DNA from: Hyphomonadaceae bacterium
Lineage (GTDB): Bacteria; Pseudomonadota; Alphaproteobacteria; Caulobacterales; Aquidulcibacteraceae
Direction of reading: 5' to 3'
Length of the DNA stretch: 64,000 nt
NCBI GenBank assembly: GCA_023384105.1
Contig: JAHDXR010000003.1
Location: 1-64,000 of the forward strand
A program made the position numbers and the translations under genes. The notes below the pieces were generated by a model. That model had not been told where the DNA came from and did no database searches. It saw only the letters and a list, made by a program, of their open reading frames with translations. This document shows positions 1-16,483 of the stretch, one piece after another. The number at the start of each line of letters is the position of its first letter. Position 1 is the stretch's first letter.

Positions 1-266
1 AATTCGAGTCCCGTGGGAATCCCTCCGATTCAATCAGATCGGATTTTGCTCTAGTCGCCGACGCAGTTTCAGCCGCGGCGCCCGCCAAGTGAGCGCAGAC
101 TTCGCGTTCTGATGCGGCGGGGCGACCGGCTGTGGGTGGACGGTAACCGCATCCACAGTGGCCATTCTGGGGAAAAGGTGGCCCGGGCCTGCGCGCTAGG
201 GAAAGATTTGCAGAACGTACGGCTCCTGCTATCGTACCAAACGATTGGTTGGTTAATGGATGGCGG
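1..266. other. Left-edge noncoding region with promoter
   Basis: I see no convincing gene before the enoyl-CoA hydratase start at 267. A small hairpin (CCGAT/ATCGG around 27-44) followed by TTTT could be a terminator for a gene left of the window. A plausible sigma-70 promoter has a TTGCAG -35 at 208-213 and a TATCGT -10 at 230-235 with 16-bp spacing, and the operator at 236-249 sits directly behind it. The promoter is inferred from consensus only. Confidence 0.45.
236..249. promoter_or_regulatory. TetR-type operator, site 1
   Basis: Palindrome ACCAA-ACGA-TTGGT, perfect in both 5-bp arms. It lies just after the putative -10 box and 17 bp before the hydratase start, a position that suits repression. 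Four similar sites occur upstream of other genes in the first 16.5 kb. The symmetry and recurrence are seen directly; binding by one or both local TetR proteins is inferred. Confidence 0.7.
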
Positions 267-1025
267 ATGCTGCAGATTAACAGGCAGGGCGCGGTCGCGA
301 TCGCGACGCTCAATAACGTACGCGCACACAACACGCTTACACGTGATTTCTGGGGAGCGTTCCGCGAAGCGCTAGCGACGCTCGAGAGCAAGGGCGTGCG
401 CGCGCTCGTGCTCACAGGCGCCGGCCGCAAGGCCTTCTGTGTCGGCGGCGATCTGCACAGCTTCGCCGAACTCAAGAGCGAATCCGATCGCCGCAGCTAT
501 ATGATGGATTGCATCACCACCTTTCAAGCGATGGAGAACTCCGATCTCGTCATTGTCTCGGCCGTCAACGGCCTTGCCCTTGGCGGCGGTTGCGAACTCG
601 CCTTCGCCTCCGACATCGTTGTGGCAAGCGAGACGGCGGAGTTTGGTTTACCGGAGGCGAGATTCGGTCTCATGCCCGGGTATGCGGCCTTCCGTGGGCC
701 TACCATCATCGGGCGGCAATGGACCAAATACCTGATCTGCACCGGCGAACGCATCAGCGCCAAGAAGGCGCAGCGCCTTGGCCTTGTGCTCGAAATCACA
801 GAGCAATCTGCCGCCGCCGAGCGCGCCTGTAAGCTTGCCGAGCAGATCGCCAACGCCGCCCCCCTAGCGGTGCGCGCCTGCAAGCGCATGGCCAATGGGC
901 CGATGGACAACGATACATTCGCCAGCGCGATCGATCTTGTCACGAGTCTGCAAGGCACCGCGGACGTGGCCGAGGGCCTTGCGGCCTTCATCGAGAAGCG
1001 CAAGCCCTCTTTCAAAGGCGCTTAG
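267..1025 (+). CDS. Enoyl-CoA hydratase/isomerase family protein
   Basis: A 252-aa crotonase-fold enzyme, expected to hydrate a trans-2-enoyl-CoA in beta-oxidation. The oxyanion-hole segments (FCVGGDL near residue 57 and GGGCELA near 106) are present. Both catalytic glutamates of classical hydratases are conserved, one in GGGCELA and one in FGLPEA. The ATG at 267 is preferred to an in-frame TTG at 249, which overlaps the operator. It is first gene of a two-gene unit, and the SDR gene follows after one base. It belongs to the palindrome-marked regulon; the substrate is unknown. Confidence 0.88.
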   Translation: MLQINRQGAVAIATLNNVRAHNTLTRDFWGAFREALATLESKGVRALVLTGAGRKAFCVGGDLHSFAELKSESDRRSYMMDCITTFQAMENSDLVIVSAVNGLALGGGCELAFASDIVVASETAEFGLPEARFGLMPGYAAFRGPTIIGRQWTKYLICTGERISAKKAQRLGLVLEITEQSAAAERACKLAEQIANAAPLAVRACKRMANGPMDNDTFASAIDLVTSLQGTADVAEGLAAFIEKRKPSFKGA

Positions 1026-1026
1026 C

Positions 1027-1917
1027 ATGAATTCGGCCATCCGTTTTGACGGCAAAACCGCTTTAATTACAGGCGCTGCGAGCGGTTTGGGCCGGTCACA
1101 CGCCATCGAGTTCGCGCGTCGCAGAGCGCGCGTCATGCTGACGGACATGAACGAGGCCGTGCAAGACGTTGCGGCTGAAATCCAGGCTGAAGGCGGTGAG
1201 TGCGCAGCCGCGATCGGCAGCGTGTCCAACCGCCAGGACTGCGAGCGCGCGGTTCAAGCCGCGATCGAACAATGGGGTCAGCTCGACATCCTCGTAAACA
1301 ATGCGGGCGTTCTGCGGGACCGCACGCTGGAGAAGCAGAGCGACGCCGACTGGGATACCGTGCTCGACGTTCATCTCACGGGTGCACGCAACATGACGCT
1401 GGCTGCGTGGCCCTCAATGTCGGCGCGCAAATACGGCCGCATCATCAACACGACGTCGGCCTCCGGCCTTTACGGCAATTTTGGCCAAACCAACTACGCC
1501 GCGGCGAAGATGGGGCTGGTCGGCTTCACCAAGTCGTGCGCGCTTGAAGGCGTACGGCACGGCGTCAATGCGCACTGCATCGCCCCGATTGCGCACACGG
1601 CGATGACCGACAAATTGTGGGACGATAGTGCAAAAGCCGGCACAGACCCGGCGCTGGTTTCGCCGGTGGTCGCCTATCTCGCCTCTTCCGAGTGCCGCGA
1701 GAACTGCATGATCCTCGCGGCGGGCGGCGGCTATGTCGCGCGCGTGGCGGTGATCGAAGCGCTGGGCGCGCGGGTAGAGCACGGCCAGTCCCTCAACGCC
1801 GAGTGGGTCCGCGAGAACTTTGCCCGCATCTCTGACATGCGAAACGCCGACGCTCCCCCTTCTGTTATCCAGGCTCTTAAAAAGGCGTTTCGGGCTGAAT
1901 CTACGGGCGAAATTTAA
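1027..1917 (+). CDS. SDR-family dehydrogenase, (3R)-hydroxyacyl-CoA dehydrogenase-like
   Basis: A 296-aa short-chain dehydrogenase. It has the cofactor glycine motif TGAASGLG (residues 15-22), NNAG, and a Ser-Tyr-Lys active site with YAAAK. The chain runs about 40 residues past a standard 250-aa SDR, with an AAGGGYVARV segment like the dehydrogenase domain of peroxisomal multifunctional enzyme 2. A role in oxidising the hydroxyacyl-CoA made by the preceding hydratase is therefore likely. The start at 1027 follows the hydratase stop by one base. Exact stereochemistry and substrate are inference. Confidence 0.82.
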   Translation: MNSAIRFDGKTALITGAASGLGRSHAIEFARRRARVMLTDMNEAVQDVAAEIQAEGGECAAAIGSVSNRQDCERAVQAAIEQWGQLDILVNNAGVLRDRTLEKQSDADWDTVLDVHLTGARNMTLAAWPSMSARKYGRIINTTSASGLYGNFGQTNYAAAKMGLVGFTKSCALEGVRHGVNAHCIAPIAHTAMTDKLWDDSAKAGTDPALVSPVVAYLASSECRENCMILAAGGGYVARVAVIEALGARVEHGQSLNAEWVRENFARISDMRNADAPPSVIQALKKAFRAESTGEI

Positions 1918-2022
1918 GAGCGCGTGCCGTTGCCCGTCTTGCTGCGATGCAGCAAACCGGTTGCAAACGTTAGAATTTTTTCGGACCCCCATCGACTTTT
2001 GAAACGGCCCATGCAAAATTCA

Positions 2023-2036
2023 ACCAAACGGTCGGT
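2023..2036. promoter_or_regulatory. TetR-type operator, site 2
   Basis: ACCAA-ACGG-TCGGT, matching site 1 at 12 of 14 positions. It lies 44 bp upstream of the TonB receptor start (2081). This puts uptake under the same inferred regulator as the catabolic genes. Confidence 0.6.
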
Positions 2037-2080
2037 TCGATACTATGACACAAAGACCGGTTAAGCGGGAGGAATACTGG

Positions 2081-4309
2081 ATGCGTCTAAGACCAAGCCG
2101 CGAGTTCGCCGCTCTATTGGCGCTCGCCATTCCAACCTTGCCGGCGGCTGCAGCAGCGCAAGAAACACAGCCGGAAGCGATCGAAGCCGCCGCTCCTGAG
2201 AGCACGTCCGCCTTCCTCGACGACGTTGTCGTGACCGCTCGAAAACGCGCCAACGCCGAAGCCGCGCAAGACACGCCCATCGCCGTGACCGTGTTCAGCG
2301 AGGCGCAATATGAAGCGGTGTTCGCCACCGACCTGATGGATCTCGGCGATCTTTCGCCGAACGTCGAATTCCGGCCGTCCACCATCGTCGGCCTGCAAAA
2401 CTTCACGATCCGCGGCATGGGCATCACGGGTTCGACACCGTCTGACGCACCGGCTGTCGGCATTTTCCAGAACGGCGTATTCTGGGGTTCGAATTACGGC
2501 GCCCTGCTCGACACGTTCGACATCGAGAGCGTTGAAATTCTGCGCGGTCCGCAAGGTACCCTGTTTGGCCGCAACGTGACCGGCGGCGCGGTGCTGGTGC
2601 GCACCAAGCGTCCGGGAGACGAATTCGCGTTTGAAGCGCAGGCTGTCGCCGGCACGCACGGCCGCGCCGATCTCTCAGCCGCCGTGGAAGGCCAGATCCT
2701 GGGCAATGTGCTGTCCGGCCGGCTCACCGGGCTGTATCGTAGCTATGACGGCTACTTTGAGAATACGCTGACGGGCCAGCCCTATGGCGGCTCGGATGTT
2801 ACGGTGCTGCGCGGCACGCTCGTGTTCGAACCGACGCCGAATTTCGACGCGACGCTTGTCGTCGACACGTATCGCGAGGATGGCGACTCGACGCCGGTGG
2901 TCGGCATCGCTATCCCGGGCACGCTTCCCTACACCAACGGCTTTCGTCAGCCGGCCGACTACTGGGATATCGAGATTGATCGCCCGGGCGCCTCGTTAAT
3001 CGAAGTCGACTCTGCCTCTCTCGAAATGAATTGGGACCTCGGTCACGGCATCGTTACGTCTGTGACCGGCTATCGCGACGTATATAATCGCAATAACACC
3101 GATTTCGACGGCACGCCGTTCTCGGGCTTCAATCAAAGCATTCTGTTCAACTCCGAACAGTTGACGCAAGAGCTGCGCTACGCCTCAGATTTCGAGGGAT
3201 GGTTCAACTTCACGGTTGGCGCATACTACTTCGACCTGAAGCATGACTTCCGCGAAGGCCGCAACCTCAACAACAACTCGACGATCTTCGCTTCGGGCAA
3301 CCACCTCGAACAATCGTCATGGGCGGTGTTCGGCGAAGGCGACATAAGCTGGAACGATTTTACGCTGACGCTGGGCGCTCGCTATACTGAAGAAAGCATC
3401 ACGGCGCGGACACGCCCATTCGGCGGCTGCCCGCTGCCGGCGACAACAGATACCAACCGCTACCTCGACCTCACGCTGCCGTGCGATCTCGGCCCGTCAG
3501 ACACAGCGGAATTCAACGATGTTTCGCCCAAGGTCGGTCTGACCTGGGAGCCGACGGACGATCACCTCGTCTACTTCACCGCGACGCGCGGCTTCCGTTC
3601 GGGCGGCTTCAGCCTGCGCGGCTCGGCGCTGACGCCGCCATTCGATGCGGAACAGGTGAACGCTCTGGAGCTGGGCTATAAGGGAGACCTGCTGAACGAC
3701 CGGCTTCGTTTCAACATGGCCTTGTTCCATAACGAGTACGAAGATCTCCAGCGCACGATCGTGTTCGTCAGCCCCACGCTCGGCACCTTCCAGAAGACGG
3801 GCAACGCGGCGGCGGCGACGATCCAGGGCCTCGAAATCGAAGCCACCTGGCAGCCCACAGAAGAACTCACGCTCACGGCCGCCTATGGCTACACGGATGC
3901 ACAGTTCGAAAGCTTCGAAGGCCTCGACGTGACGGGTGACGGCGTGCCGGACCCGAACCTCGCTTCGCAGCTGCACTTCGTGCGCGTGCCGGAAGAGACC
4001 TTCACCGCTTCGATCAACTACCAAATGCCGTTGGAAAGCGGTGCGCTGATGCGCTACCGCCTCTCCGGCAACTACGTTGGCGATCAGTATCTGGACGACC
4101 TCAATCTCCTGCACGAACCGAGCTACACGATCTTCGATGCAAGCATCGCATGGGTGAGCCCGGACCGGAGATGGGAAGTCGCCGGGTTCGTCCAGAACAT
4201 CGGCAACACCGAATATGCGTTCTACAGCGCAAGCCTCGGCGCCCTCGGCCTGATCGAACTCGCCGGTCCGCCACGGACAGCTGGCGTCCGGCTCTCCTAC
4301 GACTACTAA
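2081..4309 (+). CDS. TonB-dependent outer-membrane receptor
   Basis: A 742-aa outer-membrane active transporter. An N-terminal signal peptide ends near AAAAAQ. A TonB-box/plug start follows (DDVVVTARKR), then the plug motif LRGPQGTLFGRNVTGG, then a long beta-barrel ending in an aromatic residue (SYDY). There is no N-terminal signalling domain of the FecA type, so it is a plain transporter. The ATG at 2081 is chosen over 2045 because GGGAGG lies 8 bases before it and the signal peptide begins there. The operator just upstream and the adjacent TetR gene suggest it imports the substrate of the flanking pathway rather than iron, by analogy with other pathway-linked TonB receptors. Confidence 0.9.
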   Translation: MRLRPSREFAALLALAIPTLPAAAAAQETQPEAIEAAAPESTSAFLDDVVVTARKRANAEAAQDTPIAVTVFSEAQYEAVFATDLMDLGDLSPNVEFRPSTIVGLQNFTIRGMGITGSTPSDAPAVGIFQNGVFWGSNYGALLDTFDIESVEILRGPQGTLFGRNVTGGAVLVRTKRPGDEFAFEAQAVAGTHGRADLSAAVEGQILGNVLSGRLTGLYRSYDGYFENTLTGQPYGGSDVTVLRGTLVFEPTPNFDATLVVDTYREDGDSTPVVGIAIPGTLPYTNGFRQPADYWDIEIDRPGASLIEVDSASLEMNWDLGHGIVTSVTGYRDVYNRNNTDFDGTPFSGFNQSILFNSEQLTQELRYASDFEGWFNFTVGAYYFDLKHDFREGRNLNNNSTIFASGNHLEQSSWAVFGEGDISWNDFTLTLGARYTEESITARTRPFGGCPLPATTDTNRYLDLTLPCDLGPSDTAEFNDVSPKVGLTWEPTDDHLVYFTATRGFRSGGFSLRGSALTPPFDAEQVNALELGYKGDLLNDRLRFNMALFHNEYEDLQRTIVFVSPTLGTFQKTGNAAAATIQGLEIEATWQPTEELTLTAAYGYTDAQFESFEGLDVTGDGVPDPNLASQLHFVRVPEETFTASINYQMPLESGALMRYRLSGNYVGDQYLDDLNLLHEPSYTIFDASIAWVSPDRRWEVAGFVQNIGNTEYAFYSASLGALGLIELAGPPRTAGVRLSYDY

Positions 4310-4318
4310 CCTCCCCGG

Positions 4319-4354
4319 AACGGCCTTCGTATCTTTCGAAGGCCGTTTTTCTTT
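4319..4354 (+). terminator. Rho-independent terminator after the TonB receptor gene
   Basis: An 11-bp perfect stem (AACGGCCTTCG / CGAAGGCCGTT) with a 7-base loop, followed by a T-rich tract (TTTTTCTTT counting the stem end), 10 bp after the receptor stop codon. Confidence 0.88.
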
Positions 4355-4470: not shown

Positions 4471-5106
4471 ATGGCTAAATCCAGTGCCAAATCAGATGGC
4501 GCGCCGCCCAAGAAACATCCCGGCGGCGCTCACTCCAAGCGCTGGGACAAATTGTTGCAGGCCGCCGCCCTCCTCTTCGCTGAAAAAGGCTACGAAGCCA
4601 CGTCGATGCAGGACATCGCCGACAGCGTCGGCGTGTTGAAGGGCAGTCTCTATCACTACGTGGACAGCAAAGAGAAAATCCTTTTCGAGATTATCAATGA
4701 CACCTTCGAGCTGGGCGTTCGGAACGTGGGCGCCATCGAGGCCGGCCTTGAGCCCGAGGAACGCATCCGCGCCCTCGTCGACAAGCACATCGACTTTCTG
4801 CTGAACAACGTCACCACGTCGCGCGTGCTCTTACACGAGTCAGCCGCACTGACCGGCGAATATCGGAAGATCGTCGATGTTCAGAACGCCAGCTATACGA
4901 ACGTTTTCCGGCGCGCCATCGTCGACGGCCAGAATGCCGGCGTGTTCAATCTCGATCTGAACTCCGATTACGCGTGCAACTTCGTGCTTGGCGCCTGCAA
5001 CTGGGTGTATCGCTGGCACGACGACAGCGCCAACGTGAGTCACCGTCAGCTCCGCAAGCAGTTTGCCGACATGGTGGTGGCGGCGCTCAAAGCCCCTCAG
5101 CGCTAG
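4471..5106 (+). CDS. TetR-family transcriptional regulator A
   Basis: A 211-aa one-component repressor. The N-terminal helix-turn-helix spans roughly residues 25-75 (LFAEKGYEATSMQDIA, then VGVLKGSLYHYV as recognition helix). The C-terminal two thirds is the ligand-binding and dimer domain. The recognition helix is almost identical to that of the second TetR gene at 12.7 kb, so the two may share operators. It lies between the TonB receptor gene and an SDR-ligase operon, both with upstream palindromes. The ligand is probably an acyl-CoA intermediate, as for several catabolic TetR proteins; this is inferred. Confidence 0.9.
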   Translation: MAKSSAKSDGAPPKKHPGGAHSKRWDKLLQAAALLFAEKGYEATSMQDIADSVGVLKGSLYHYVDSKEKILFEIINDTFELGVRNVGAIEAGLEPEERIRALVDKHIDFLLNNVTTSRVLLHESAALTGEYRKIVDVQNASYTNVFRRAIVDGQNAGVFNLDLNSDYACNFVLGACNWVYRWHDDSANVSHRQLRKQFADMVVAALKAPQR

Positions 5107-5223: not shown

Positions 5224-5237
5224 ACTGGTCGTTTGGT
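5224..5237. promoter_or_regulatory. TetR-type operator, site 3 (one strong half)
   Basis: ACTGG-TCGT-TTGGT. The right half and centre match the consensus exactly and the left half is degenerate. It is 35 bp upstream of the SDR start at 5272, at the head of the four-gene SDR/ligase/flavoenzyme/SDR run. Confidence 0.5.
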
Positions 5238-5271
5238 AGATTGTTGAGGAAGAGAGCACCAAAGAAGCGCG

Positions 5272-6072
5272 ATGTCGAAGCCAGCGGGCAGACTTTCAGG
5301 CCAAGTTGCCGTCGTCACAGGCGCTGCGCGCGGCATCGGTCGAGCCATCGCCCGGCGTCTGGCGCAGGACGGCGCAGCCATTGTGATCTGCGACCTCGAT
5401 CCGGCCGCGGCCGACGAGGCAGGCGCTGCGCTACGCAAGGAAGGCCTGAACGCCAGCGCAACGGCGGCCGACGTCAGCAACGCCGCGGACGTCGATCAGT
5501 TCGCCTCCGAAGTCGCGCACAAACATGGACGGCTCGACATCCTGGTCAACAATGCCGGCCTCGTCCGGGACGGCGCGCTTCATAAGATGAGCGATGAGAA
5601 CTGGATGCTGGTGAACGACGTGGTCGTGCGCGGGGCGTTCAACACCTGCCGCGCCTTCGCGCCTTTGCTACGCGCAAAAAGGGCGGATGGCGCGCACCGC
5701 AAGGTTGTCAACATCGCTTCCGTCAGTGGCATTTACGGGCGTGAACTCTCGGCCAACTATTGCGCGGCGAAGGCAGGCCTCATCGGTCTGACCAAAGCGC
5801 TGGCGCGCGAATGGGCGCCGCTGCAAGTCAACGTCAACGCTATCGCGCCTGGCTTCATCGGCGGCACCACGCTCACCACGCCCACAGACGATGGCCTCAC
5901 AGCCATGAAGCAGGAGTTTTTCGACCGCGTCGTCGCGCACATCCCGATCGGCCGCGGCGGCCGCCCGGAGGATGTGGCGGGGCTCGCAGCTTATCTCGCG
6001 TCCGCGGAGTCCGACTATGTCACCGGCCAGGTGATCGAAATTCACGGCGGCCTCGAGATTCTGAAGGTCTGA
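5272..6072 (+). CDS. SDR-family oxidoreductase
   Basis: A 266-aa classical short-chain dehydrogenase. It has TGAARGIGRA near residue 17, VNNAG near 93, and a Ser/Tyr/Lys active site (SVSGIYG then YCAAK). An acidic residue after beta-2 (CDLDP) favours NAD(H). The C-terminal GGLEI segment is typical of hydroxyacyl-CoA or alcohol dehydrogenases. It is first in an operon with the acyl-CoA ligase, which starts 3 bases after its stop. The substrate is unknown. Confidence 0.85.
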   Translation: MSKPAGRLSGQVAVVTGAARGIGRAIARRLAQDGAAIVICDLDPAAADEAGAALRKEGLNASATAADVSNAADVDQFASEVAHKHGRLDILVNNAGLVRDGALHKMSDENWMLVNDVVVRGAFNTCRAFAPLLRAKRADGAHRKVVNIASVSGIYGRELSANYCAAKAGLIGLTKALAREWAPLQVNVNAIAPGFIGGTTLTTPTDDGLTAMKQEFFDRVVAHIPIGRGGRPEDVAGLAAYLASAESDYVTGQVIEIHGGLEILKV

Positions 6073-6075
6073 GCA

Positions 6076-7647
6076 ATGACGAGCGAGTATCAAGGCGATT
6101 GGGTAATGTCGGCGATCCTGGAGGACCGCGCCGAGCGCTTTGGCGACCGCATCGCCGTGCACACGCCCTCCGGGGGCGTCAGCTATGCGCAATTGCGCGA
6201 CAACGCCCAACGCGTCGCCGCCCAATTGGCCTCCCTTGGCGTTAAACCCGGCGATTGCGTCGCCACCATGTTGAACGCCACGCCGGATTATCTTTCGGCT
6301 TGGCTCGGCTGCGCCTGGTCCGGCGCGATCGAAGTCCCGGTAAACACCGAGTACAAGGGTTTCTTCCTCGAGCATGTTTTACGCGAGTCCGGCGCGGTCG
6401 TTCTGATCGTGCAGGCGGAATACGCCGAACGTCTCTTATCGATCGAAACGCCGGACCTGCGCCACATCATCATTGTCGGTGAAACGGCCATGCCGCTTGC
6501 CGGCGTCGCGCAGCACAATTTCTCGGACTTCGCCGCGTTTGCACCCGCCCCGCGCTCGCCACGCAGCGAGCAGGACATGCTCTACGTGCTCTATACCTCG
6601 GGCACGACCGGACCATCCAAGGGCGTCATCCACTGCAACAGGAGCGCGATGTGGACAGCGCGCGTCTGGAAAGAGCTGGCCCAGCTCGGACCGGACGACG
6701 TCGGCTATTCCTATTTGCCACTCTATCACGTCACCGCGCGCTCGGCGCTGGTGAAGGCCTGTATCCTCGCGGGCGCAGCGAGCGTGGTGCGCGAGCACTT
6801 CTCCGTCAATGAGTTCTGGCCCGACGTACGCCGCTACGGCGCGACCTTCACCATGTATATGGGCGCCGTCATTCTCTTCCTTACGAAGCAGGCCGAAGTC
6901 GCCGGCGAACTCGACAACACGCTGCGCATCGCCGGCGGCGCCGCCTGTCCGCCCGAGGTCGGCAGAGAGTTTGAACGGCGCTTCGGCTGCAAACTGCTTG
7001 AGGTCTACGGCATGACCGAGATCGGCACCGCAAGCGGGCCGCGCGCCGGCGTCGTCGTTCCTGGCACGATGGGCAAGCCGTTTGACCATCTTGAGATACG
7101 AATCCATGACGCTGGCGATAATCCCCTGCCGGCCGGCGAGCTCGGCGAAATCGTGGTGCGCCCCAACGATCCGTACGCCATCATGCAAGGCTATTGGCGC
7201 CAGCCCAAAGCGACGCTCGAGGCTTGGCGCAATCTTTGGTTCCATACCGGCGATCTGGGCAAGATGACGCCCGAGGGCGATCTCATCTTCGTTGACCGTC
7301 TCAAGGACAGCATCCGCCGCCGCGGCGAAAATATCTCCTCATTCGAAGTCGAGCGCGCCGTGCAGTCGCATCCAACGGTGCAGGAGTGTGCGGCCTTCGC
7401 CGTTCCCTCCGAAGCGACCGAAGACGACGTCATGATCGCCGTTGTGGCGCGCCCGGATCGCGCAATCGACGCCGCCGCGCTGTTCGATCATTGCGAGCAG
7501 AACATGCCGCGCTTTGCTGTGCCGCGTTACCTGCGCGTCGTCAGCGCCCTCCCCAAAACGCCTACCGGCCGCGTGCAGAAACACGTGCTGCGCCAGGAGG
7601 GCGTGACGCCCGACACCGCCGAGCGCATGACGCGCCGGCGCCACTGA
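6076..7647 (+). CDS. AMP-dependent acyl-CoA synthetase (CaiC-like)
   Basis: A 523-aa member of the ANL superfamily that would activate a carboxylic acid to its CoA thioester. Motifs in order: YTSGTTGPSKG phosphate-binding loop (near residue 174), YGMTEIG, WFHTGDLG, the hinge/A8 segment RRRGENISSFEVE, and the C-terminal catalytic lysine in PTGRVQK. The overall layout resembles crotonobetaine/carnitine-CoA ligases. The start at 6076 is close-coupled to the upstream SDR; an internal ATG at 6106 is possible. It probably performs CoA activation for the regulon's substrate or an intermediate. Confidence 0.87.
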   Translation: MTSEYQGDWVMSAILEDRAERFGDRIAVHTPSGGVSYAQLRDNAQRVAAQLASLGVKPGDCVATMLNATPDYLSAWLGCAWSGAIEVPVNTEYKGFFLEHVLRESGAVVLIVQAEYAERLLSIETPDLRHIIIVGETAMPLAGVAQHNFSDFAAFAPAPRSPRSEQDMLYVLYTSGTTGPSKGVIHCNRSAMWTARVWKELAQLGPDDVGYSYLPLYHVTARSALVKACILAGAASVVREHFSVNEFWPDVRRYGATFTMYMGAVILFLTKQAEVAGELDNTLRIAGGAACPPEVGREFERRFGCKLLEVYGMTEIGTASGPRAGVVVPGTMGKPFDHLEIRIHDAGDNPLPAGELGEIVVRPNDPYAIMQGYWRQPKATLEAWRNLWFHTGDLGKMTPEGDLIFVDRLKDSIRRRGENISSFEVERAVQSHPTVQECAAFAVPSEATEDDVMIAVVARPDRAIDAAALFDHCEQNMPRFAVPRYLRVVSALPKTPTGRVQKHVLRQEGVTPDTAERMTRRRH

Positions 7648-7664
7648 GTGCTGAAAGGACGAAT

Positions 7665-9053: not shown

Positions 9054-9853
9054 TGCTGTTCAAACCGGACATCCTCAAGGGCAAGACCGCGCTCGTCACC
9101 GGCGGCGCAACGGGCATTGGCCTGCAGCTCGCCCGCGGTCTCGCCAAATGCGGCGCAACGGTCGTGATCGCCTCGCGCAACGAAAAGAACCTAGCGCACG
9201 CGACAAAGGACATGCGCGCCGAAGGCGGCGATGCGCACTATCGGTTGCTGGACATCCGCCAGGACGAGATGGTCTACGCCGTCGTAAGCGAAGTGATCGA
9301 AAGCTTCGGCAAAATCGACATCCTCGTGAACAATGCAGGCGGCCAATTTCCGAAGAAAGCGGAGGAGATATCGCCCCGCGGCTGGCGTTCGGTAGTCGAT
9401 GTTTGCCTCAACGGCACCTTTTATGTGTGCAGCGCGGTGGGCCGCCGCATGATTGAGCGCGGCCAAGGCGGCAAAATCGTCAATATCAGCGCCAGCTGCA
9501 TCGACCGCGGATCGCCCGGCATCGCCCACTCCGGCGCTGCGCGCGCGGCCGTCTCTCACCTCACGCGCACGCTCGCCAGCGAATGGGCGCAGTTCAACAT
9601 CCAGGTGAACGCCATCGGACCGCAATATCTTTCTGAGGGCGCGCGCGACAATCTCGGCGAAGCTGTCGCCAACTTCATTCCCAGTGTGACGCCGGCGGGG
9701 CGCTGGGCGACGGACGATGAGATCCAGTCCTGGGGTGTGATCCTCGCCAGCCCGCTCTCGGACTACGTCACGGGCACGACGGTCTATCTCGACGGCGGCA
9801 ATTGGCTGGGCGAAGGCATCGTCTATCGCGGCAGCCCGGTTTGCCCCGAATGA
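9053..9853 (+). CDS. SDR-family enoyl-CoA reductase-like protein (PECR type, atypical active site)
   Basis: A 266-aa SDR with TGGATGIGLQLA and VNNAGGQF, but the usual Tyr-x3-Lys pair is missing. Its place is taken by AHSGAARAAV, as in peroxisomal trans-2-enoyl-CoA reductases and 2,4-dienoyl-CoA reductases. This points to NADPH reduction of an enoyl- or dienoyl-CoA rather than alcohol oxidation. The ATG overlaps the TGA of the flavoprotein gene (TGATG). It is the last gene of this forward operon and converges with the ligase gene that ends at 9855. Confidence 0.78.
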   Translation: MLFKPDILKGKTALVTGGATGIGLQLARGLAKCGATVVIASRNEKNLAHATKDMRAEGGDAHYRLLDIRQDEMVYAVVSEVIESFGKIDILVNNAGGQFPKKAEEISPRGWRSVVDVCLNGTFYVCSAVGRRMIERGQGGKIVNISASCIDRGSPGIAHSGAARAAVSHLTRTLASEWAQFNIQVNAIGPQYLSEGARDNLGEAVANFIPSVTPAGRWATDDEIQSWGVILASPLSDYVTGTTVYLDGGNWLGEGIVYRGSPVCPE

Positions 9854-9854
9854 A

Positions 9855-11486
9855 TCAGCGCTTCAGTATCTCGCGTAGTTTGAACTTCTGAATCTTCGTC
9901 GCCGACATCGGCCATTCGGTGACGAAGATCACTTCGCGCGGCACCTTGAAATTCGCGAGCTTGCCCCTGCAGAAACCGATCAGCTCCTCCGCGCTGGCGC
10001 TGTAGCCTTCGCGCAATTGCACAAACGCCACCGGCACCTCGCCATAGAATTCGTCTGCGCGCCCCACGACTTGCGCCAGCGCCACCGCCTCGTGACGGCC
10101 CAGGTAGGCCTCGATCTCGGCGGCGCCGACATTCTCGCCGCCCACTTTCAGCATGTCCTTGATGCGGCCGAGGAAATAGACCTGCCCGCGCTCGTCCATA
10201 CGCCCGCAGTCGCCGGTCTTCACCCAGCCGCCTGGCGCATGCGCGGCGCGCGTCGCGGCCTCATCCTTGTAGTAGCCGCGAAATGCGTTGGGCCCTCTGA
10301 ACTGAATCTCGCCCTCTTGCCCTAGCGCCAGCGGCGCATCATCTTCGGCGCGGGCGACGCGGATTTCGCACTCATCGAGCGCGCTGCCGTTGGAACGGAG
10401 CCGGACCTCTTCCGGCAAACCTGGGCGCGTCATGCTCACCATGCCCGCCCCTTCGGTCATGCCGAAATTATGATGCAGGGCTACATCCGGCGGCAGGTAC
10501 TCCTTCATCTGCATGTGTGTCTCGTAAGGCGCCACCATCCATGCTGAGCGCACCGAAGCGAAATCCTCCTTGCGGTATGCTGGATCGCGCAAGAGCGGCA
10601 TCAGCATCGTGAAGAAGCCGGGATAGAGATGCTCCGGCCTATATTCCCGAATGAGATCGAGCGCCGACACCACGTCATAGTGGCCGGCGCTGAGGAAACA
10701 CGCGCCGCGTGAAATGGCGGCGAGTGCAAGGCCGACGCCGCCAATATGGAAACATGGCAGCGGACACCAAATCTTGTGCCCAGCCTCAACACCAACTACT
10801 TTTGGATACTCGATGACCCAGCACTGATAGAGATTGCGATGGCTGATCTGGCACGCTTTCGGCATTGCCGTCGTGCCGGAGGTGAACAGCATCAGCGCAA
10901 CGTCATCCGCAGCGCCGGGGCCGCGCAGCAAATCGCCCGCAACGCCGATCCTAGTCCCTGCCTCCACAAGCTCCGCGGCTGACTGGAACGGCGCGCGTCG
11001 TGCAGCGCCGAAGAGAACGATGTTCTTGAGGCGCTGCGCCGTGGAGAGCGAGAGCGGCCCGCCTTCCTTTTGTCGCGCAAGATCGGGCGCGGCCTCGAAC
11101 AGCAAATCCCCGAAGTTCACGTGCCGATCGATCTTGTCCGTTGTGAACAGGATGTCGATGTCGGAAAAGCCCAGCACGTGCGCCAGTTCGGCGCTCTTGT
11201 AGCGCGCGTTGATCGTCACGACGACGGCGCCAATCAGCTGCGCCGCATAATAGGCGACGCAGAAGTCGATGCAGTTCGGCATCAACAAGCCGACATGGTC
11301 GCCCTTCTTCAAACCATAGGCGAGCATGCCCCTGGCGAGGGCTTCGGCGCGTTTGTGAAAATCGCGATAACTGATGCTCTCCCCGTCGATGACGGCGAAG
11401 GTGCGGTCGGCATGAAGCGCGGCATTCTCGTGCAACAGCGCGCCCTGTGTCGGCAGGTTTGGCTCGTTGCGCATGATCAGCGCCAT
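9855..11486 (-). CDS. AMP-dependent acyl-CoA synthetase (class I adenylate-forming)
   Basis: A 543-aa ANL ligase. It has a phosphate-binding loop of slightly unusual form (FTSGTTAMPKACQ, with Ala and Met where Gly is common), GMTEGAGM, VKTGDCGR, the hinge KVGGENVGAAEIE, and a C-terminal catalytic lysine in SATKIQK. The ATG at 11486 is chosen because upstream in-frame codons run into the preceding gene. It starts 4 bases after that gene's stop, with GGGG as a ribosome site. The two form a reverse operon behind operator site 4. It is probably the activating enzyme for the imported acid or a side-chain fragment. Confidence 0.85.
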   Translation of the reverse strand: MALIMRNEPNLPTQGALLHENAALHADRTFAVIDGESISYRDFHKRAEALARGMLAYGLKKGDHVGLLMPNCIDFCVAYYAAQLIGAVVVTINARYKSAELAHVLGFSDIDILFTTDKIDRHVNFGDLLFEAAPDLARQKEGGPLSLSTAQRLKNIVLFGAARRAPFQSAAELVEAGTRIGVAGDLLRGPGAADDVALMLFTSGTTAMPKACQISHRNLYQCWVIEYPKVVGVEAGHKIWCPLPCFHIGGVGLALAAISRGACFLSAGHYDVVSALDLIREYRPEHLYPGFFTMLMPLLRDPAYRKEDFASVRSAWMVAPYETHMQMKEYLPPDVALHHNFGMTEGAGMVSMTRPGLPEEVRLRSNGSALDECEIRVARAEDDAPLALGQEGEIQFRGPNAFRGYYKDEAATRAAHAPGGWVKTGDCGRMDERGQVYFLGRIKDMLKVGGENVGAAEIEAYLGRHEAVALAQVVGRADEFYGEVPVAFVQLREGYSASAEELIGFCRGKLANFKVPREVIFVTEWPMSATKIQKFKLREILKR

Positions 11487-11490
11487 AGGC

Positions 11491-12522
11491 TCAACCCCAA
11501 ACCACGCGCTGATCGACGATGCGCGCGCCCTCAAACGTCTTGCGCCATGATGGCGCGCGCCCGTAAAGGCCCTCGTATGCGTTAAAGTAAGCAATCACAT
11601 CAGGCCAGTTGAGCGGATAGAACTCGGTATAGTTCCAGCTACGCTTGATCTTTCGGTCGCGGTTGATCTGAGTGACGAAGCCGCACGTGTGCATCGGCCA
11701 ATCCTGCGAGCCTTTCTGTGTCAGCTCGACGTGAGTGTCCGTTCCCAGCGACAACAGCACTTTAGTCGGCGTTCCTCGTGAGGTTGTCTCCAGCTCGATC
11801 TTAGCGTCGCAGCGCGCGGCGCTTACGCCATCGACGATATGGTGAGCTGCTGCGAAATTGGTGCCGGGCCGCCCGCGCCAGGCGAGCCCGCCTTCGTAGC
11901 CGCCATCCTCATACTCCACCATCCAGTTGAGCCACACATTATGCAACTCGGTCATCATGCCCATCTCATTCCATAGCAATTCTGGCTGGCTATAGATGAA
12001 GTCGACCATGAAGAGGCCGGTGACGCGATCGCCGCCGATTGCGCCGGTCACACGCCCCATATGGCTGCGCAACATTTGCGGATGTGACGAGAGTTTCTGC
12101 TTCGGTATCCAGAACGTGCTGACTTTACCGACGTGCTCGATCGCGAGCTCCACATCCCCGGAGGCGTCGATCCACTTGTGGCCCCTGGGACTGAATTGCA
12201 GGCTGAAATGGGCGCCTTCGTAAGCCACGGTCTCTCCGTCATCGCGAACGATGAGCGGCTCCAGCACCGGCGCCTTGTCCGCTTTAAAGTAGAACGGGCC
12301 CTGCGCGTCGAGTTCGTCGGTGACCTCGTAGATGCCGAAATTGATGGCGACGCCTTTCTGCCGTCCGTTCACGCCGCGCATCAGCTGGTACATCCGGCCG
12401 GACTCGCCAGTGCAGACGATGAATGGGCAGATGAAGACCAAAGCCAAGCCCGGCATCGGCTGGTGGTTCATGCGCAAGCCCGCGACAGTGATATCTTCAA
12501 GATAGCTCTGATACCGCAGCAT
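11491..12522 (-). CDS. Conserved protein of unknown function, 343 aa
   Basis: I do not recognise this protein. It has no signal peptide and no clear membrane helix. The composition is rich in Trp, Tyr, Gly and alternating beta-type segments, which would suit a double lipocalin-like barrel of the AttH/CrtC kind, but that is only a guess. The start is set at ATG 12522 because the longer frame (12618) would begin inside the operator at 12603-12616. It is translationally close to the downstream acyl-CoA ligase gene (4 bases), so a role in the same pathway is likely, perhaps binding or transforming a hydrophobic CoA ester. Confidence 0.7.
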   Translation of the reverse strand: MLRYQSYLEDITVAGLRMNHQPMPGLALVFICPFIVCTGESGRMYQLMRGVNGRQKGVAINFGIYEVTDELDAQGPFYFKADKAPVLEPLIVRDDGETVAYEGAHFSLQFSPRGHKWIDASGDVELAIEHVGKVSTFWIPKQKLSSHPQMLRSHMGRVTGAIGGDRVTGLFMVDFIYSQPELLWNEMGMMTELHNVWLNWMVEYEDGGYEGGLAWRGRPGTNFAAAHHIVDGVSAARCDAKIELETTSRGTPTKVLLSLGTDTHVELTQKGSQDWPMHTCGFVTQINRDRKIKRSWNYTEFYPLNWPDVIAYFNAYEGLYGRAPSWRKTFEGARIVDQRVVWG

Positions 12523-12602
12523 AGGGTTCCCTATTCTGTCTGCGCGGGGCGCGGCCGTGCGCGCCCGGCCGCTGGACCATATCCTCACTTCTTCAATTTT
12601 CA

Positions 12603-12616
12603 ACCAATCGTTTGGC
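12603..12616. promoter_or_regulatory. TetR-type operator, site 4
   Basis: ACCAA-TCGT-TTGGC, differing from the reverse complement of site 1 at one base. It lies between the divergent gene for the 343-aa protein (81 bp away) and TetR B (103 bp away), so it could control both and allow autoregulation. Confidence 0.7.
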
Positions 12617-12718
12617 ATTTTTACATGATCGGCTTATACTTCGCCGCAAGGCCGCCGCTCGCTACCCTGGGGACTCGAGATTTCCAGGCGCCGCGGCGCC
12701 TTGCACAGGAGGCCTTGC

Positions 12719-13435
12719 GTGGCCGAACGAAAAGACAACGCAACCAAACTGCCTCGCCGCGCCCGTGCGGGAACGGCGCTGTCGCAGGAGCGCTGGGAAA
12801 AGATCCTGGAAGTGGCCACACGCCTCTTTCGACAGCGCGGCTTTGCCGGCGCCTCGATGCAGGACGTCAGCGATGAAGTCGGACTGCTGAAGGGCAGCCT
12901 CTATTACTACGTCAAGTCGAAGGAAGAATTGCTCTTCGAAGTACTGCGCGACCTCCACCAGGGAGGCGGCGACATCGTCGAAAGCGTCCAATACGAATCG
13001 GACGACCCCCTCGGGCAGCTCAAAGAGTATCTGCGTCGCCTGACAATTTACGCCGGCGAGCAGCGCGCTCGCCTCGCCATCTTCTTCCGCGACTTTGGCT
13101 GCCTGCCGATCGAGAACCAGAAACAGATTATCGCGGAGCGCGACATGTATGTCGTCTGCGCCGTGCGCTTGATAGAGGAAGCCAAAGCCAAAAAGCAGAT
13201 CGACTCTTCGATCAATTCCACCGTGGCCGCCCTCTCCGTTCTGGGCGCCACCTCGGTGACGCACGAATGGTATCGGCCGGACGGTCCCCTCAGCCTCGAG
13301 ACGATCGGCGAACAGGTCGCAGCCATCATCATCGACGGCCTCGGCGGCGCCAGCGTGACACGCCCGAGCCGGCGCGCCAGGGACACCTCCCAGCGCTCCA
13401 GAGCAAAAACCAGGAGCACCACAAGAAAGTCATGA
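12719..13435 (+). CDS. TetR-family transcriptional regulator B
   Basis: A 238-aa repressor paralogous to the gene at 4471. The helix-turn-helix covers about residues 27-70 (FRQRGFAGASMQDVSDEVG, then LLKGSLYYYVKSKEELLF). The C-terminal tail is long and basic (RRARDTSQRSRAKTRSTTRK), which is unusual. The GTG at 12719 is chosen for the perfect AGGAGG six bases upstream. The stop overlaps the next SDR start (ATGA). The divergent operator suggests autoregulation. Confidence 0.9.
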   Translation: MAERKDNATKLPRRARAGTALSQERWEKILEVATRLFRQRGFAGASMQDVSDEVGLLKGSLYYYVKSKEELLFEVLRDLHQGGGDIVESVQYESDDPLGQLKEYLRRLTIYAGEQRARLAIFFRDFGCLPIENQKQIIAERDMYVVCAVRLIEEAKAKKQIDSSINSTVAALSVLGATSVTHEWYRPDGPLSLETIGEQVAAIIIDGLGGASVTRPSRRARDTSQRSRAKTRSTTRKS

Positions 13436-14205
13436 CCGACGACATCTTTCGTCTCGATGGCCGGACTATACTCGTCACCGGCGGCGCCAATGGCCTCGGA
13501 CGCATGATCGCCGAAGCGCTCCTGGGCGCGGGAGCGCGCGTGCTGCTCACGTCGCGCAAGGATGCGGAAACGGCGGCGGCGGAACTCTCCGCGCTCGGGC
13601 CGTGCGAGGGCGTCAACGCCAATCTCGCAACCCCAGAAGCGGCTGTAGCGCTGGCTGAGGAGATTCGCGCGCGCACCGACAAGCTGCACGTCCTCATCAA
13701 TAATGCTGGCCGCACCTGGGGCGCGCCCTTCGATTCCTATCCCGACAAAGCCTGGGCGCCGGTGATGACGGTGAACGTCCATACGCCATTCATTCTCGCG
13801 CGGGAGCTAAAGCCGCTTCTGCAGGCTGCCGGCAAACCGGACGATCCGGCGCGCATTCTCAACATCGGCTCCATCGCCGGCAGGGGCGTTCACGGCCTCG
13901 ATGCTTACGCCTATTCCGCCAGCAAGGCGGCGTTGCATCATCTTACCCGTGAGATCGCAACCGAACTGGCGCCGCATAACATCGCCGCGAACGTCATTAT
14001 CCCCGGCTGGTTCCCGACCGACATGACCGCCTTCATCCGCAGCGACGACGACACCCACAGAAAGGCGATCGACAACATCCCGCTGAAGCGCTTCGGCACA
14101 GCGCGCGATATTGGCGGGACCGTCATATTCCTTTCTTCGCAAGCGTCCGCCTACATTACAGGCGCCGAGATTGCGCTTGATGGCGGCGTCAGCGGATGTC
14201 GCTAA
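13432..14205 (+). CDS. SDR-family oxidoreductase (RhlG/FabG-like)
   Basis: A 257-aa SDR with TGGANGLGRMIA, INNAG, and a complete active site (GSIAG, then AYSASK). The SRKDAE segment after beta-2 suggests NADP(H), since Arg-Lys commonly contacts the 2' phosphate. It is coupled to TetR B upstream (ATGA) and overlaps the downstream hydrolase gene by 10 bases, so the three form one transcript. It probably reduces or oxidises a beta-keto/hydroxyacyl intermediate. Confidence 0.84.
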   Translation: MTDDIFRLDGRTILVTGGANGLGRMIAEALLGAGARVLLTSRKDAETAAAELSALGPCEGVNANLATPEAAVALAEEIRARTDKLHVLINNAGRTWGAPFDSYPDKAWAPVMTVNVHTPFILARELKPLLQAAGKPDDPARILNIGSIAGRGVHGLDAYAYSASKAALHHLTREIATELAPHNIAANVIIPGWFPTDMTAFIRSDDDTHRKAIDNIPLKRFGTARDIGGTVIFLSSQASAYITGAEIALDGGVSGCR

Positions 14206-15044
14206 GCGACTCGAACACGGCCATGCGCCTTCCAGGCGCTGACGGCGTTACAATCGCCTCCGATGCGTTCGGCGACGACAGCGCTCCGCCTGTCGTCCTC
14301 ATGCATGGCGGAGGCCAAAGCCGCAGCGCCTGGCGCGGAGGCGCGCAAGCGCTCGCCAAAGCCGGTTATCGGGCCTATTCAATCGACCTGCGCGGCCACG
14401 GCCATAGCGACTGGGCGCGCGACGGCGACTATCGCTTTCTCTCCTATGCGCATGACTTGGCCGCCCTCATCCCTGCGATCGGCGGACGTGCGGCCCTGGT
14501 CGGTGCCTCGCTCGGCGGCCGCGTGGCGCTGCTCGCTGCTGCACGTTTTCCCCAACACGTCGCCGCCATCGCGCTTTGCGACGTCGCCGCCGAGGTCGAT
14601 GAAGGCGCCACCCAGGAAATGCGCGCATTTTTCCGCTCGACGAAGAACGGCTTTGGCTCCCTTGAAGAGGCCGCCGCGATCCTCAGCGCGCTGCGCGAAG
14701 GACGCCAGGGCGAGCCCGCCGAAAAGCTGCGTCCGCACCTCCGTGAAGAGGGCGGGCGGTTCTACTGGCGCTGGGACCCGCGCTTCGCCGACGAGCGCTA
14801 TATCGGCGACCCCGAAGAGATCGCATTGCTTCAGCGGAGCACTGCCGAGGTGCGCGCACCGATGATCATGATCCGCGCTGAACACAGCACCGTCGTGAGC
14901 CCCGAACACCTGCAGCGCTTCCATGTCCACGCGCCGCACGCCGAGTTGGCGATCGCGCCGGGCATCGGTCATATGTTGACGGGCGACGCCAACGACGCTT
15001 ACGCACCGATCATTATCGATTTCCTGAATCGCACTTATCGCTGA
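14196..15044 (+). CDS. Alpha/beta-fold hydrolase
   Basis: A 282-aa enzyme with the HGGGQSRSAW oxyanion region, nucleophile elbow GASLGG (Ser near residue 108), and a C-terminal histidine in GIGHML. There is no signal peptide, so it is cytoplasmic. It could hydrolyse an ester, lactone or C-C bond (meta-cleavage type); the sequence does not decide. It overlaps the SDR gene by 10 bp and ends three bases before the convergent acyl-CoA dehydrogenase gene. Confidence 0.83.
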   Translation: MSLSDSNTAMRLPGADGVTIASDAFGDDSAPPVVLMHGGGQSRSAWRGGAQALAKAGYRAYSIDLRGHGHSDWARDGDYRFLSYAHDLAALIPAIGGRAALVGASLGGRVALLAAARFPQHVAAIALCDVAAEVDEGATQEMRAFFRSTKNGFGSLEEAAAILSALREGRQGEPAEKLRPHLREEGGRFYWRWDPRFADERYIGDPEEIALLQRSTAEVRAPMIMIRAEHSTVVSPEHLQRFHVHAPHAELAIAPGIGHMLTGDANDAYAPIIIDFLNRTYR

Positions 15045-15047
15045 TCG

Positions 15048-16205
15048 TTACCGCGCCTTGCGTTCGTCAAGCCCGAGGCCGCGCCCGATGATCTCTTTCA
15101 TGATCTCGCTCGCGCCCGCGAAGATGCGCGAGATCCGTGCGTCCGTATACATGCGACAGACGCGATATTCATCCATGTAGCCCGCGCCGCCATGCAGCTG
15201 CACGGCCTCGTCAACCACGCGCCCTTCCAGTTCGGATGAAAGCAATTTTGCTTCGGCGGCGAGTTCGGCGGTGAGTTCACCCTTGTTATAGAGCAGCACG
15301 CATTGATCGACGAAACATTGAACGGCGTCGAGCTTCGCGCGCAGCCCGGCCAACACAAAGCGGCTGTTCTGGAATACCCCGATCGGCTTGCCGAACGCAC
15401 GGCGCTGCTTCACGAACTCCAGCGTCAAGTCAAACGCAGTCTGCGCCGCCGCCATGGCGCCGACCGCCGCGATCAGGCGTTCGCCAGCCAGGAATGTCGA
15501 GAGGTATGCAAAGCCCTTACTCGGGTCGCCAAGTACGTTCTCCTTGGGTACGCGCACGTTTTCAAGGAAGAGCTCCGAAGTATCCTGCGCCGCTAAGCCC
15601 ATCTTCTTCAGCCTCTGACCGCGCTGGAAACCTGCCATGCCGGCTTCCACGACGAAGAGGCCGATGCCGTATTTCGCGTTGGGATCGGAGCGCGCGGCCA
15701 CGATCACCAGATCGGCGATCTGGCCGTTTGAGATATAGGTCTTCGAGCCGTTGAGCAGCCAATGATCGCCGCGATCTTCGGCGCGCGTCTTCATGCCGGC
15801 GAGATCGCTGCCTGCAGCAGGCTCCGTCATCGCGATGGCGAGAATGGATTCACCTGTGACGCACTTAGGCAACCACCGCTGCTTCTGCTCTTCGGTGCCC
15901 AACTTGCCGATATAAGGCGCCACAAGGCCGGAGTGCAGATTGATATAAAAACCGATCTCGCCAGCGCGGATGTTCTCTTCGAAAACGATCTGCTCGTATC
16001 GGAAGTCACGAATGCTGAGCCCGCCATAGGCTTCTTCCGCCCAGGGCAGCAAATAGCCTTGCGCGCCCGCCTTCAGATAGGCTTCGCGATCTACATAGCC
16101 TTGCTCACGCCAGCGCGCGCCATGCGGCGCGATCTCGCGCTCGAAGAAGCGGCGCACTTGTTCACGGAATTGTTCATGCTCAGGTTCGAAGATCAGGCGG
16201 CGCAC
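15048..16205 (-). CDS. Acyl-CoA dehydrogenase
   Basis: A 385-aa flavoenzyme introducing the alpha-beta double bond of an acyl-CoA. It shows the N-terminal helix domain (EHEQFREQVRRFFEREI), the FAD/substrate segment AMTEPAAGSDLAGM, and a C-terminal QLHGGAGYMDEY plus GASEIMKEIIGRGL typical of long-chain-type members. The GTG at 16205 is preferred because GAGAGG lies 8 bases upstream and the sequence then starts like other family members. The longer frame from 16295 has no family resemblance. The upstream remnant ORF overlaps it by 13 bases. Confidence 0.88.
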   Translation of the reverse strand: MRRLIFEPEHEQFREQVRRFFEREIAPHGARWREQGYVDREAYLKAGAQGYLLPWAEEAYGGLSIRDFRYEQIVFEENIRAGEIGFYINLHSGLVAPYIGKLGTEEQKQRWLPKCVTGESILAIAMTEPAAGSDLAGMKTRAEDRGDHWLLNGSKTYISNGQIADLVIVAARSDPNAKYGIGLFVVEAGMAGFQRGQRLKKMGLAAQDTSELFLENVRVPKENVLGDPSKGFAYLSTFLAGERLIAAVGAMAAAQTAFDLTLEFVKQRRAFGKPIGVFQNSRFVLAGLRAKLDAVQCFVDQCVLLYNKGELTAELAAEAKLLSSELEGRVVDEAVQLHGGAGYMDEYRVCRMYTDARISRIFAGASEIMKEIIGRGLGLDERKAR

Positions 16206-16387
16206 GCGTGAAACCTCTCGCCACGCTCGGCCATGGCCCGTAGCCGTGTAGTGGGTGCAAAGCGCGCGCCATGCTTTTGCGCCAGCGCATCGCACTGCTG
16301 AACAAAGGGCGCAACGCCAATAGTGTCGATCAACGATAAAGTTCCGCCCGTCCAGCTCGGGAAGCCTTTGCAGGAACGATCCATCAA
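16193..16387 (-). pseudogene. Remnant of a FadJ/FadB-type 3-hydroxyacyl-CoA dehydrogenase (C-terminal end only)
   Basis: A 64-codon open frame whose residues 8-60 look like the last segment of the large multifunctional fatty-acid oxidation protein: GFPSWTGG, then IDTIGV, then GARFAP and AERGERF, the order seen at the end of FadJ. Nothing of the hydratase or NAD-binding domains is present. It begins 7 bp from operator site 5 and runs 13 bases into the acyl-CoA dehydrogenase gene. The simplest reading is a deletion that removed most of the gene and left promoter and tail. Translation as a 64-aa leader is possible. Confidence 0.6.
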
Positions 16388-16393
16388 AAACCT

Positions 16394-16407
16394 ATCAATC
16401 GTTTGGT
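16394..16407. promoter_or_regulatory. TetR-type operator, site 5
   Basis: ATCAA-TCGT-TTGGT, one mismatch from the ideal palindrome. It is in the divergent region between the acyl-CoA dehydrogenase side and the carboxylase operon. A second, weaker match (AACAA-ACGG-TAGAA) occurs at 16441-16454, 30 bp before the carboxylase start, so this region may bind two dimers. Confidence 0.65.
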
Positions 16408-16483
16408 TGTTTGTCTAGAGTGAGTCTTGCCCAGAAATCAAACAAACGGTAGAAAGTTTTTCGCCCATAGGATTTTGAACCGC

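Follow-up and report, generated by a model that had tools for sequence, protein, structure and literature searches.

Among the regulators of the TetR family, PfmR (TTHB023) of Thermus thermophilus, KstR2 of mycobacteria and AtuR/RdmA of Pseudomonas possess operators which, as given in PMC7022988, PMC3068626 and PMC9973270, share their frame with five short palindromic sites located at positions 236, 2023, 5224, 12603 and 16394 (S1 to S5) of a 64,000-nucleotide stretch of DNA from a Hyphomonadaceae bacterium (contig JAHDXR010000003.1, positions 1 to 64,000, hereafter the window), but differ from these sites in the core. We consider the five palindromes to be most likely the operators of one local regulon repressed by TetR2, one of two TetR proteins encoded among them. 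The operators of BkaR (GTTA-N-T-N4-A-N-TAAC, according to PMC3920632), EdcR (as given in PMC8700777) and MbdR (as given in PMC4424350) differ more.

The PfmR operator is quoted in PMC7022988 as TACCGACCGNTNGGTN, with fatty-acid genes being among the targets of this regulator. By eye, S1 agrees with it at 11 and S2 at 10 of the 13 specified positions. PfmR shares the TetR fold and belongs to the best fold matches of TetR2 (3vpr, TM up to 0.90 on the target). The two systems differ, however, in the operator core (CAAACG here versus CGACCG there, as reported) and in the gene set, and the fold alignment of the two proteins yields an identity of 25-27%. A later REPSA consensus for PfmR is centred on TGACC-GGTCA according to PMC7022988. 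KstR2 is reported to use a 14-bp operator, AnCAAGnnCTTGnT, which lies in three intergenic regions in the vicinity of its gene (PMC3068626), and its inducer to be a CoA ester, HIP-CoA (PMC8700777). Although the KstR2 entries 4w97 and 4w1u are fold matches of TetR2, the KstR2 operator as given there reads CAAG where all five sites of the window read CAAAC. In addition, the helix of KstR2 is LSGSLYHH compared to LKGSLY(Y/H)Y here, and its genes are those of the lower cholesterol pathway and not the present set.

AtuR/RdmA resembles TetR2 in being a TetR repressor that acts on a catabolic cluster next to its gene. The atu cluster also harbours carboxylase, ligase, short-chain dehydrogenase/reductase (SDR) and dehydrogenase genes. 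The AtuR/RdmA operators are described as 13-bp repeats, AGCAAGCGCTTGG and CCAAGCGCTTGCT, adjacent to the -10 box (PMC9973270); they differ in the operator core (AAGCGCTT), and AGCAAGCGCTTGG as given in that source is not matched by the site sequences of the window. Atu-type breakdown of acyclic terpenes was considered as the function of the cluster but set aside: the carboxyltransferase (CT) encoded in the window scores best with transcarboxylase and propionyl-CoA carboxylase chains (beta type, 282 bits) and not with the geranyl-CoA enzyme (5ikl, 207.5 bits). AibR of Myxococcus, present together with isovaleryl-CoA in 5k7z and 5k7h according to the entry titles, belongs to another pathway. MbdR of Azoarcus, reportedly released by 3-methylbenzoyl-CoA from the operator ATAC-N10-GTAT (PMC4424350), is an acyl-CoA-binding TetR protein as well, yet differs in operator and pathway. 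A search of the open-licence literature, partly aimed at known regulators, returned no description of the present regulon, and among the titles listed from a search with the letters of the sites none concerns a bacterial operator. The local acyl-CoA-type TetR regulon proposed here is a kind of system already known, with a cross-phylum footprint.

Palindromic sites within the window and the genome

The original prediction regarded the five sites as near-identical copies of ACCAA-N4-TTGGT. A pattern search of the 64 kb finds this palindrome exactly at 236, with one mismatch each at 2023, 12603 and 16394, and with at most one mismatch at no further place. Near-identity hence holds for these four sites, but not for that at 5224 (ACTGGTCGTTTGGT), whose left arm carries three mismatches and whose minus strand holds the common half ACCAAACG. 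Since the strict palindrome is too loose (7.7 occurrences being expected at two mismatches) and misses the 5224 site, it was replaced by a half-site-led matrix. This matrix was trained on S1 to S5 only, the 5224 site being itself one of the training sites, and scores the five sites at 20.3-25.3 bits. Oriented alike, all of them conform to (A/G)CCAAACG(A/G)(T/C)(T/C)(G/A)(G/A)T. As had been claimed, several sites are alike even in the 4-bp centre, ACGA/TCGT being common to 236, 5224, 12603 and 16394, with ACGG at 2023.

Five matches of at least 14 bits are present in positions 1-16600 (shuffle mean 0.41; none of 200 shuffles reaches five), and at a threshold of at least 18 bits the count is again five, compared to a shuffle mean of 0.015. 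In positions 16601-64000 there is no match of at least 14 bits (shuffle mean 0.75), in line with the claim that the motif is missing from the later 47 kb. Likewise, each of the five sites indeed lies upstream of a different transcription unit. A weaker sixth copy that had been suggested at 16441 (AACAAACGGTAGAA) was dropped, since its best register (16437) reaches only 11.2 bits, a level which several later places of the window reach, too. As both the 12-mer CCAAACGRYYRG and the matrix were derived from the sites themselves, these window counts are partly circular, and we therefore put more weight on the comparisons with other genomes described below.

The 12-mer CCAAACGRYYRG occurs at six places of the 3.67-Mb genome, four of which are located within the first 12.6 kb of the contig. 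With at most one mismatch, ACCAA-N4-TTGGT is found at 36 places genome-wide (26 for the reversed control), four of them within the 16.4 kb considered here. A similar density of the motif in unrelated genes, named beforehand as the observation that would speak against a regulon, is not seen in this genome. The two remaining 12-mers, both on contig C17 and one of them at a distance of about 0.7 kb from a further TetR gene, were kept out of the regulon because the helix of the nearby TetR protein differs and because the 27 kb around both contain no match of at least 14 bits. A stretch of 20 kb past the window contains one match of at least 18 bits, as do 5 of 200 shuffles.

Recurrence of the operator around relatives of TetR2

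Searching named genomes with an alignment of the two TetR proteins yielded 129 relatives, the best 80 of which were kept, corresponding to 78 loci (numbered with L below). Together with two stretches of a genome of the same genus (G107) these gave 80 stretches, which were searched with the matrix from the five window sites only. At thresholds of at least 12, 14, 16, 18 and 20 bits, 213, 131, 77, 50 and 22 matches are found, compared to shuffle means of 51.5, 13.3, 4.0, 1.2 and 0.2. For matches of at least 18 bits, the maximum among 20 dinucleotide shuffles is 5 as opposed to the 50 seen, and 41 of the 80 stretches have one. The reversed matrix gives eight matches at 14 bits. Just one of the 131 matches of at least 14 bits falls into sequence matched by a window protein, such sequence amounting to 432,513 of 1,327,726 bases.

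To locate the matches relative to genes, only the best gene matches that did not overlap were retained at the relatives' loci, and genes with a located start were counted as positive if a match reaching 14 bits stood no more than 250 bp upstream. Such a match precedes the flavoprotein gene in 15 of 26 cases, biotin carboxylase (BC) in 11 of 25, CT in 9 of 24 and the TetR2-type gene in 8 of 23. Further counts are 6/46 for enoyl-CoA hydratase (ECH), 5/25 for acyl-CoA dehydrogenase, 4/71 for SDR2-type, 3/23 for ligase 2 type, 2/5 for ligase 3 type, 2/17 for TetR1-type, 1/26 for SnoaL, 1/9 for SDR4 and 1/1 for SDR1 genes. By the same measure no match precedes hydrolase (0/2), TonB receptor (0/1), SDR3 (0/4) or ligase 1 (0/4) genes; operon-internal genes are not expected to have a site upstream.

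An unbiased count of 8-mers in 275 upstream segments is headed by TACCAAAC (41 versus 0.05 expected), CTACCAAA and ACCAAACG (46 versus 0.9). In a dyad search of the whole loci TACCA-N10-TGGTA ranks 14th (19 versus 0), behind many G+C-rich dyads, and the search was redone on the upstream segments alone, where this dyad comes first (17 versus 0). From the 64 distinct sites scoring 16 bits or more, the consensus CTACCAAACG-(A/G)-(T/C)-(C/T)-GGTAG was derived, which the flanks of S3 match. S1 is followed by an extra TTGGT 4 bp further on (window positions 236-253), and in the relatives L033-L110 operator arms recur 4 bp apart, as CTACC-N4, N8 and N12-GGTAG. From the sequences, such staggered registers might provide room for two dimers or for shifted dimers. 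Chance similarity, or a dispersed repeat devoid of any regulatory role, could be invoked for the palindromes in view of the two-mismatch pattern, which occurs 16 times in the 64 kb where chance predicts the number given above. Their clustering within the window, their placement upstream of genes and their recurrence across phyla, however, speak so strongly against it that we regard this explanation as barely credible.

Two genomes of the same genus allow the regulator to be separated from the enzymes. G107 encodes a TetR2 relative of 44% identity, with AACAAACGATTGAT just 5' of tetR2 and GCCAAACGTTTGTT 5' of SDR4, and its 36 kb contain five matches of at least 14 bits (0.8 expected; none of 200 shuffles reaches five); neither CT (at E 1e-140) nor TetR1 (at E 1e-30) is found in this genome. 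G127, in contrast, holds CT (69%), ECH, SnoaL, ligase and BC together (L114-L115, G127:C2:970001-1003000), with no TetR2 at E 1e-30. Since TetR2 and sites occur without CT in the former genome and the enzymes without TetR2 or any excess of sites in the latter, the sites appear to track the regulator and not the enzymes, with a single genome on each side. CT relatives at E 1e-140 are found in 2 of 398 genomes of the order (the window's own and G127) and in 1 of 385 genomes of the class (the own one).

Apart from the single genome on each side of this comparison, several observations weigh against one operator read by TetR2-type proteins. The 36 kb of G107 contain variant sites and lack the strict 12-mer. 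For G127, the 0 matches reaching 14 bits over 33 kb compare with 0.8 expected by chance and thus denote the lack of an excess, not a shortage. In 30 genomes of the genus, the own one included, the strict 12-mer occurs less often than its reversed control (252 versus 374, summed by hand), so that the word alone is not diagnostic and only its clustering is. Among the relatives, 20 of the 80 stretches are without a match of at least 14 bits. A clade of eight loci (L080, L082-L086, L088 and L089, including Acidimicrobiia) does not exceed 13.5 bits despite its LKGSLYYY helix, and L063 and L070 are without a match of at least 14 bits although they belong to the main Pseudonocardiaceae/Nocardia clade, most members of which possess sites. 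In L033, the nearest relative (71%), the sites are weaker, scoring 15.2 bits at best, and stand 5' of a ligase gene and of ECH-CT. Furthermore, overlapping registers of one site are counted separately in the match totals, and the sample favours this reading head, since the relatives were fetched by means of two peptides, one of them being the recognition helix.

Even so, because the operator found here also lies 5' of corresponding genes next to TetR2 relatives from other phyla, the originally predicted single regulon spanning uptake, activation, oxidation and carboxylation genes is supported as the best reading, the more so as the sites accompany TetR2 and not the carboxylase in the two genomes of the genus. 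Uptake is represented by the TonB receptor, activation by the acyl-CoA ligases, oxidation by the SDRs, the flavoprotein and probably acyl-CoA dehydrogenase, and carboxylation by CT and BC. The TetR2 relative of a Sphingomonas (L036) has the helix RKASLYYY and no match of at least 14 bits nearby (best 12.5 bits); judged from its sequence, this single case is possibly a natural specificity variant. In Actinomycetospora and Pseudonocardia, CT proteins 67-71% identical to that of the window are accompanied by SnoaL, ECH and biotin carboxylase, and an uncharacterised CT-SnoaL-ECH-BC block is shared by many of the loci L039-L067 (e.g. L039, L041, L048 and L062).

The likely reader of the sites and the proposed regulon

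Both TetR proteins show the features of the family, i.e. a TetR_N helix-turn-helix (HTH) followed by a helical C-terminal domain, and the model of TetR2 (pLDDT 89.5) is all-helical. Its nearest folds are 3dcf, PfmR, AibR with isovaleryl-CoA (one AibR entry also containing operator DNA) and KstR2, and FadR with and without stearoyl-CoA follows from rank 24 on. Neither protein qualifies as an equivalog of KstR (NCBIfam cut-off 280 bits; TetR1 30.2, TetR2 20.2 bits) or of Bacillus FadR (cut-off 200 bits; TetR1 59.3, TetR2 32.9 bits). The original prediction had treated the two as equals. Both are indeed present among the sites, but the evidence points to TetR2, with TetR1 as a possible second reader at most. 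A palindromic operator at the regulator's own promoter is common, though not universal, among TetR repressors; a candidate of this kind is found for TetR2 (S4) and 5' of tetR2 in G107 but not for TetR1, upstream of which (4310-4470) no match of at least 9 bits is seen. The promoter of TetR1 is probably its own, since the gap between the TonB receptor gene and TetR1 holds a hairpin with T residues after it (about 4318-4352, by eye). Judged from these comparisons, the reader of the sites is most likely TetR2.

That the operators are shared by both proteins, each being a repressor with an inducer of its own and their sites overlapping, is nevertheless a serious alternative to which we assign somewhat less than an even chance. 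Their recognition helices are nearly identical (VLKGSLYHYV in TetR1, LLKGSLYYYV in TetR2), 29 of 56 HTH residues and most of the second and third helices are shared, and of the genome's 15 further TetR matches the 12 with a readable helix all lack LKGSLY. A precedent is provided by PfmR and SbtR of Thermus, for which PMC7022988 describes in vitro binding to sites in shared promoters. Against such sharing, TetR1 is without a preceding site and does not group with the TetR2 clade, its branch being long. Moreover, it could not be footprinted independently because of too few relatives: it is the sole member found in 299 genomes of the order at E 1e-30, and at E 1e-25 only one further protein (35%) is found in 385 genomes of the class. 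TetR1 might even be the only reader, with TetR2 controlling something else, as its gene lies between S2 and S3 and its reading head is alike. This we consider very improbable, however, since the sites are found again around TetR2 relatives, at the promoter of TetR2 itself and in G107, a genome possessing TetR2 but no TetR1 at the threshold given above.

With TetR2 as reader, we propose that this protein occupies the 14-18-bp site (C)TACCAAACG-N-YYGGTAG as a dimer and thereby blocks the promoters of about six units, namely ECH-SDR1, TonB receptor, SDR2-ligase 1-flavoprotein-SDR3, U1-ligase 2, TetR2-SDR4-hydrolase and CT-SnoaL-BC, the operon limits being presumptive; acyl-CoA dehydrogenase would perhaps also be subject to TetR2. 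An acyl-CoA produced by the ligases of the cluster would most likely bind TetR2 and free the DNA, upon which uptake, activation, oxidation and carboxylation should rise together. An acyl-CoA is the natural guess for the inducer, because several fold neighbours bind acyl-CoA and acyl-CoA ligases are among the targets; the modelled fold thus suggests acyl-CoA-relieved repression. The proposal provides the pathway with a probable switch and with a regulon, comprising about 15 to 17 genes, that is open to testing. Its operator word and clustering may be used to find other parts of the pathway in many genomes, and the inducer, if found, would reveal what the cluster degrades.

Rather more tentatively, and with a probability we put well short of even, TetR2 and its relatives may form an acyl-CoA-sensing TetR group not described before, which has its own operator, CTACCAAACG-N-YYGGTAG with arms sometimes staggered by 4 bp, and controls an uncharacterised carboxylase-dependent pathway. 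This pathway would have moved between actinobacteria and alphaproteobacteria, sometimes together with the switch, and the second TetR protein would mean two inputs in the present organism.

Gene units, promoters and surroundings

The features of the locus are compiled in the table.

Table. Predicted operators and genes of the locus (window positions; bits refer to the matrix trained on S1 to S5)
Feature	Position	Strand	Basis or remark
Operator S1 ACCAAACGATTGGT (predicted)	236..249	+	25.3 bits; 17 bp 5' of ATG 267, ECH-SDR1 unit
ECH	267..1025	+	NCBIfam
SDR1	1027..1917	+	NCBIfam
Operator S2 ACCAAACGGTCGGT (predicted)	2023..2036	+	21.2 bits; 5' of TonB-dependent receptor
TonB-dependent outer-membrane receptor	2045..4309	+	NCBIfam, Pfam
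TetR1, second TetR	4471..5106	+	Pfam TetR_N (PF00440) and TetR_C_24 (PF17932), above cut-off
Operator S3 ACCAAACGACCAGT (predicted), flanked CTACCAAACGACCAGTAG	5224..5237	-	20.3 bits; 34 bp 5' of SDR2-ligase 1-flavoprotein-SDR3
SDR2, acyl-CoA ligase 1, flavin amine-oxidase-like protein, SDR3	5272..9853	+	family matches
U1 (without Pfam family) and acyl-CoA ligase 2	9855..12522	-	family matches
Operator S4 GCCAAACGATTGGT (predicted)	12603..12616	-	22.6 bits; divergent gap, U1-ligase 2 (minus) / TetR2-SDR4-hydrolase (plus)
TetR2, candidate reader of operators	12719..13435	+	Pfam TetR_N (PF00440) and TetR_C_24 (PF17932), above cut-off
SDR4 and alpha/beta hydrolase	13432..15044	+	family matches
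Acyl-CoA dehydrogenase	15048..16211	-	start uncertain; open reading frame listed up to 16295
Operator S5 ACCAAACGATTGAT (predicted)	16394..16407	-	24.4 bits; between acyl-CoA dehydrogenase (minus) and carboxyltransferase (plus)
CT, SnoaL-like protein, BC with biotin carrier domain	16484..20660	+	family matches

The open reading frame (ORF) of the TonB receptor begins at 2045, with ATG 2081, preceded by GGGAGGAA, being the likelier start by eye. TetR2 is listed from TTG 12701 and, again by eye, has a GTG start after AGGAGG. No Pfam family is matched by U1, and the solved relatives of the flavoprotein are all distant.

The position of the sites relative to predicted promoters bears on the mode of action. 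S1 directly follows a predicted -10 box. S4 overlaps the -35 box of the predicted TetR2 promoter (TTGGCA-N17-TATACT, 10 of 12 positions) and abuts that of the predicted U1 promoter (TTGAAA-N16-TATGGT, 9 of 12). At S2, S3 and S5 the best promoter matches amount to 7 or 8 of 12 only, and taken alone such predictions are weak evidence. Some TetR-family proteins activate transcription, and an activator in place of a repressor would agree with S2 and S5 standing about 44 and 76 bp 5' of likely start codons and with the activator FasR occurring among the weak NCBIfam matches. Yet the placement of S1 after the -10 box, of S3 in close proximity to its start codon and of S4 over the -35 box suits steric blocking, even though the promoter calls are weak, and we regard activation as unlikely.

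A 63-residue ORF lies on the minus strand (16193-16384) between acyl-CoA dehydrogenase and S5; the impression by eye that it represents the tail of a hydroxyacyl-CoA dehydrogenase finds no support from Pfam and was abandoned. The G+C content is 61-63% in positions 1-16000, 65% in 16001-20000 and 64-69% in the later blocks, with a tRNA-Leu gene (20830-20914) at the end of the lower-G+C stretch (1-20914). Since the lower G+C extends up to this tRNA gene and since few genomes of the order possess TetR2 or CT, the cluster was likely acquired as an island whose left end would lie beyond the contig edge.

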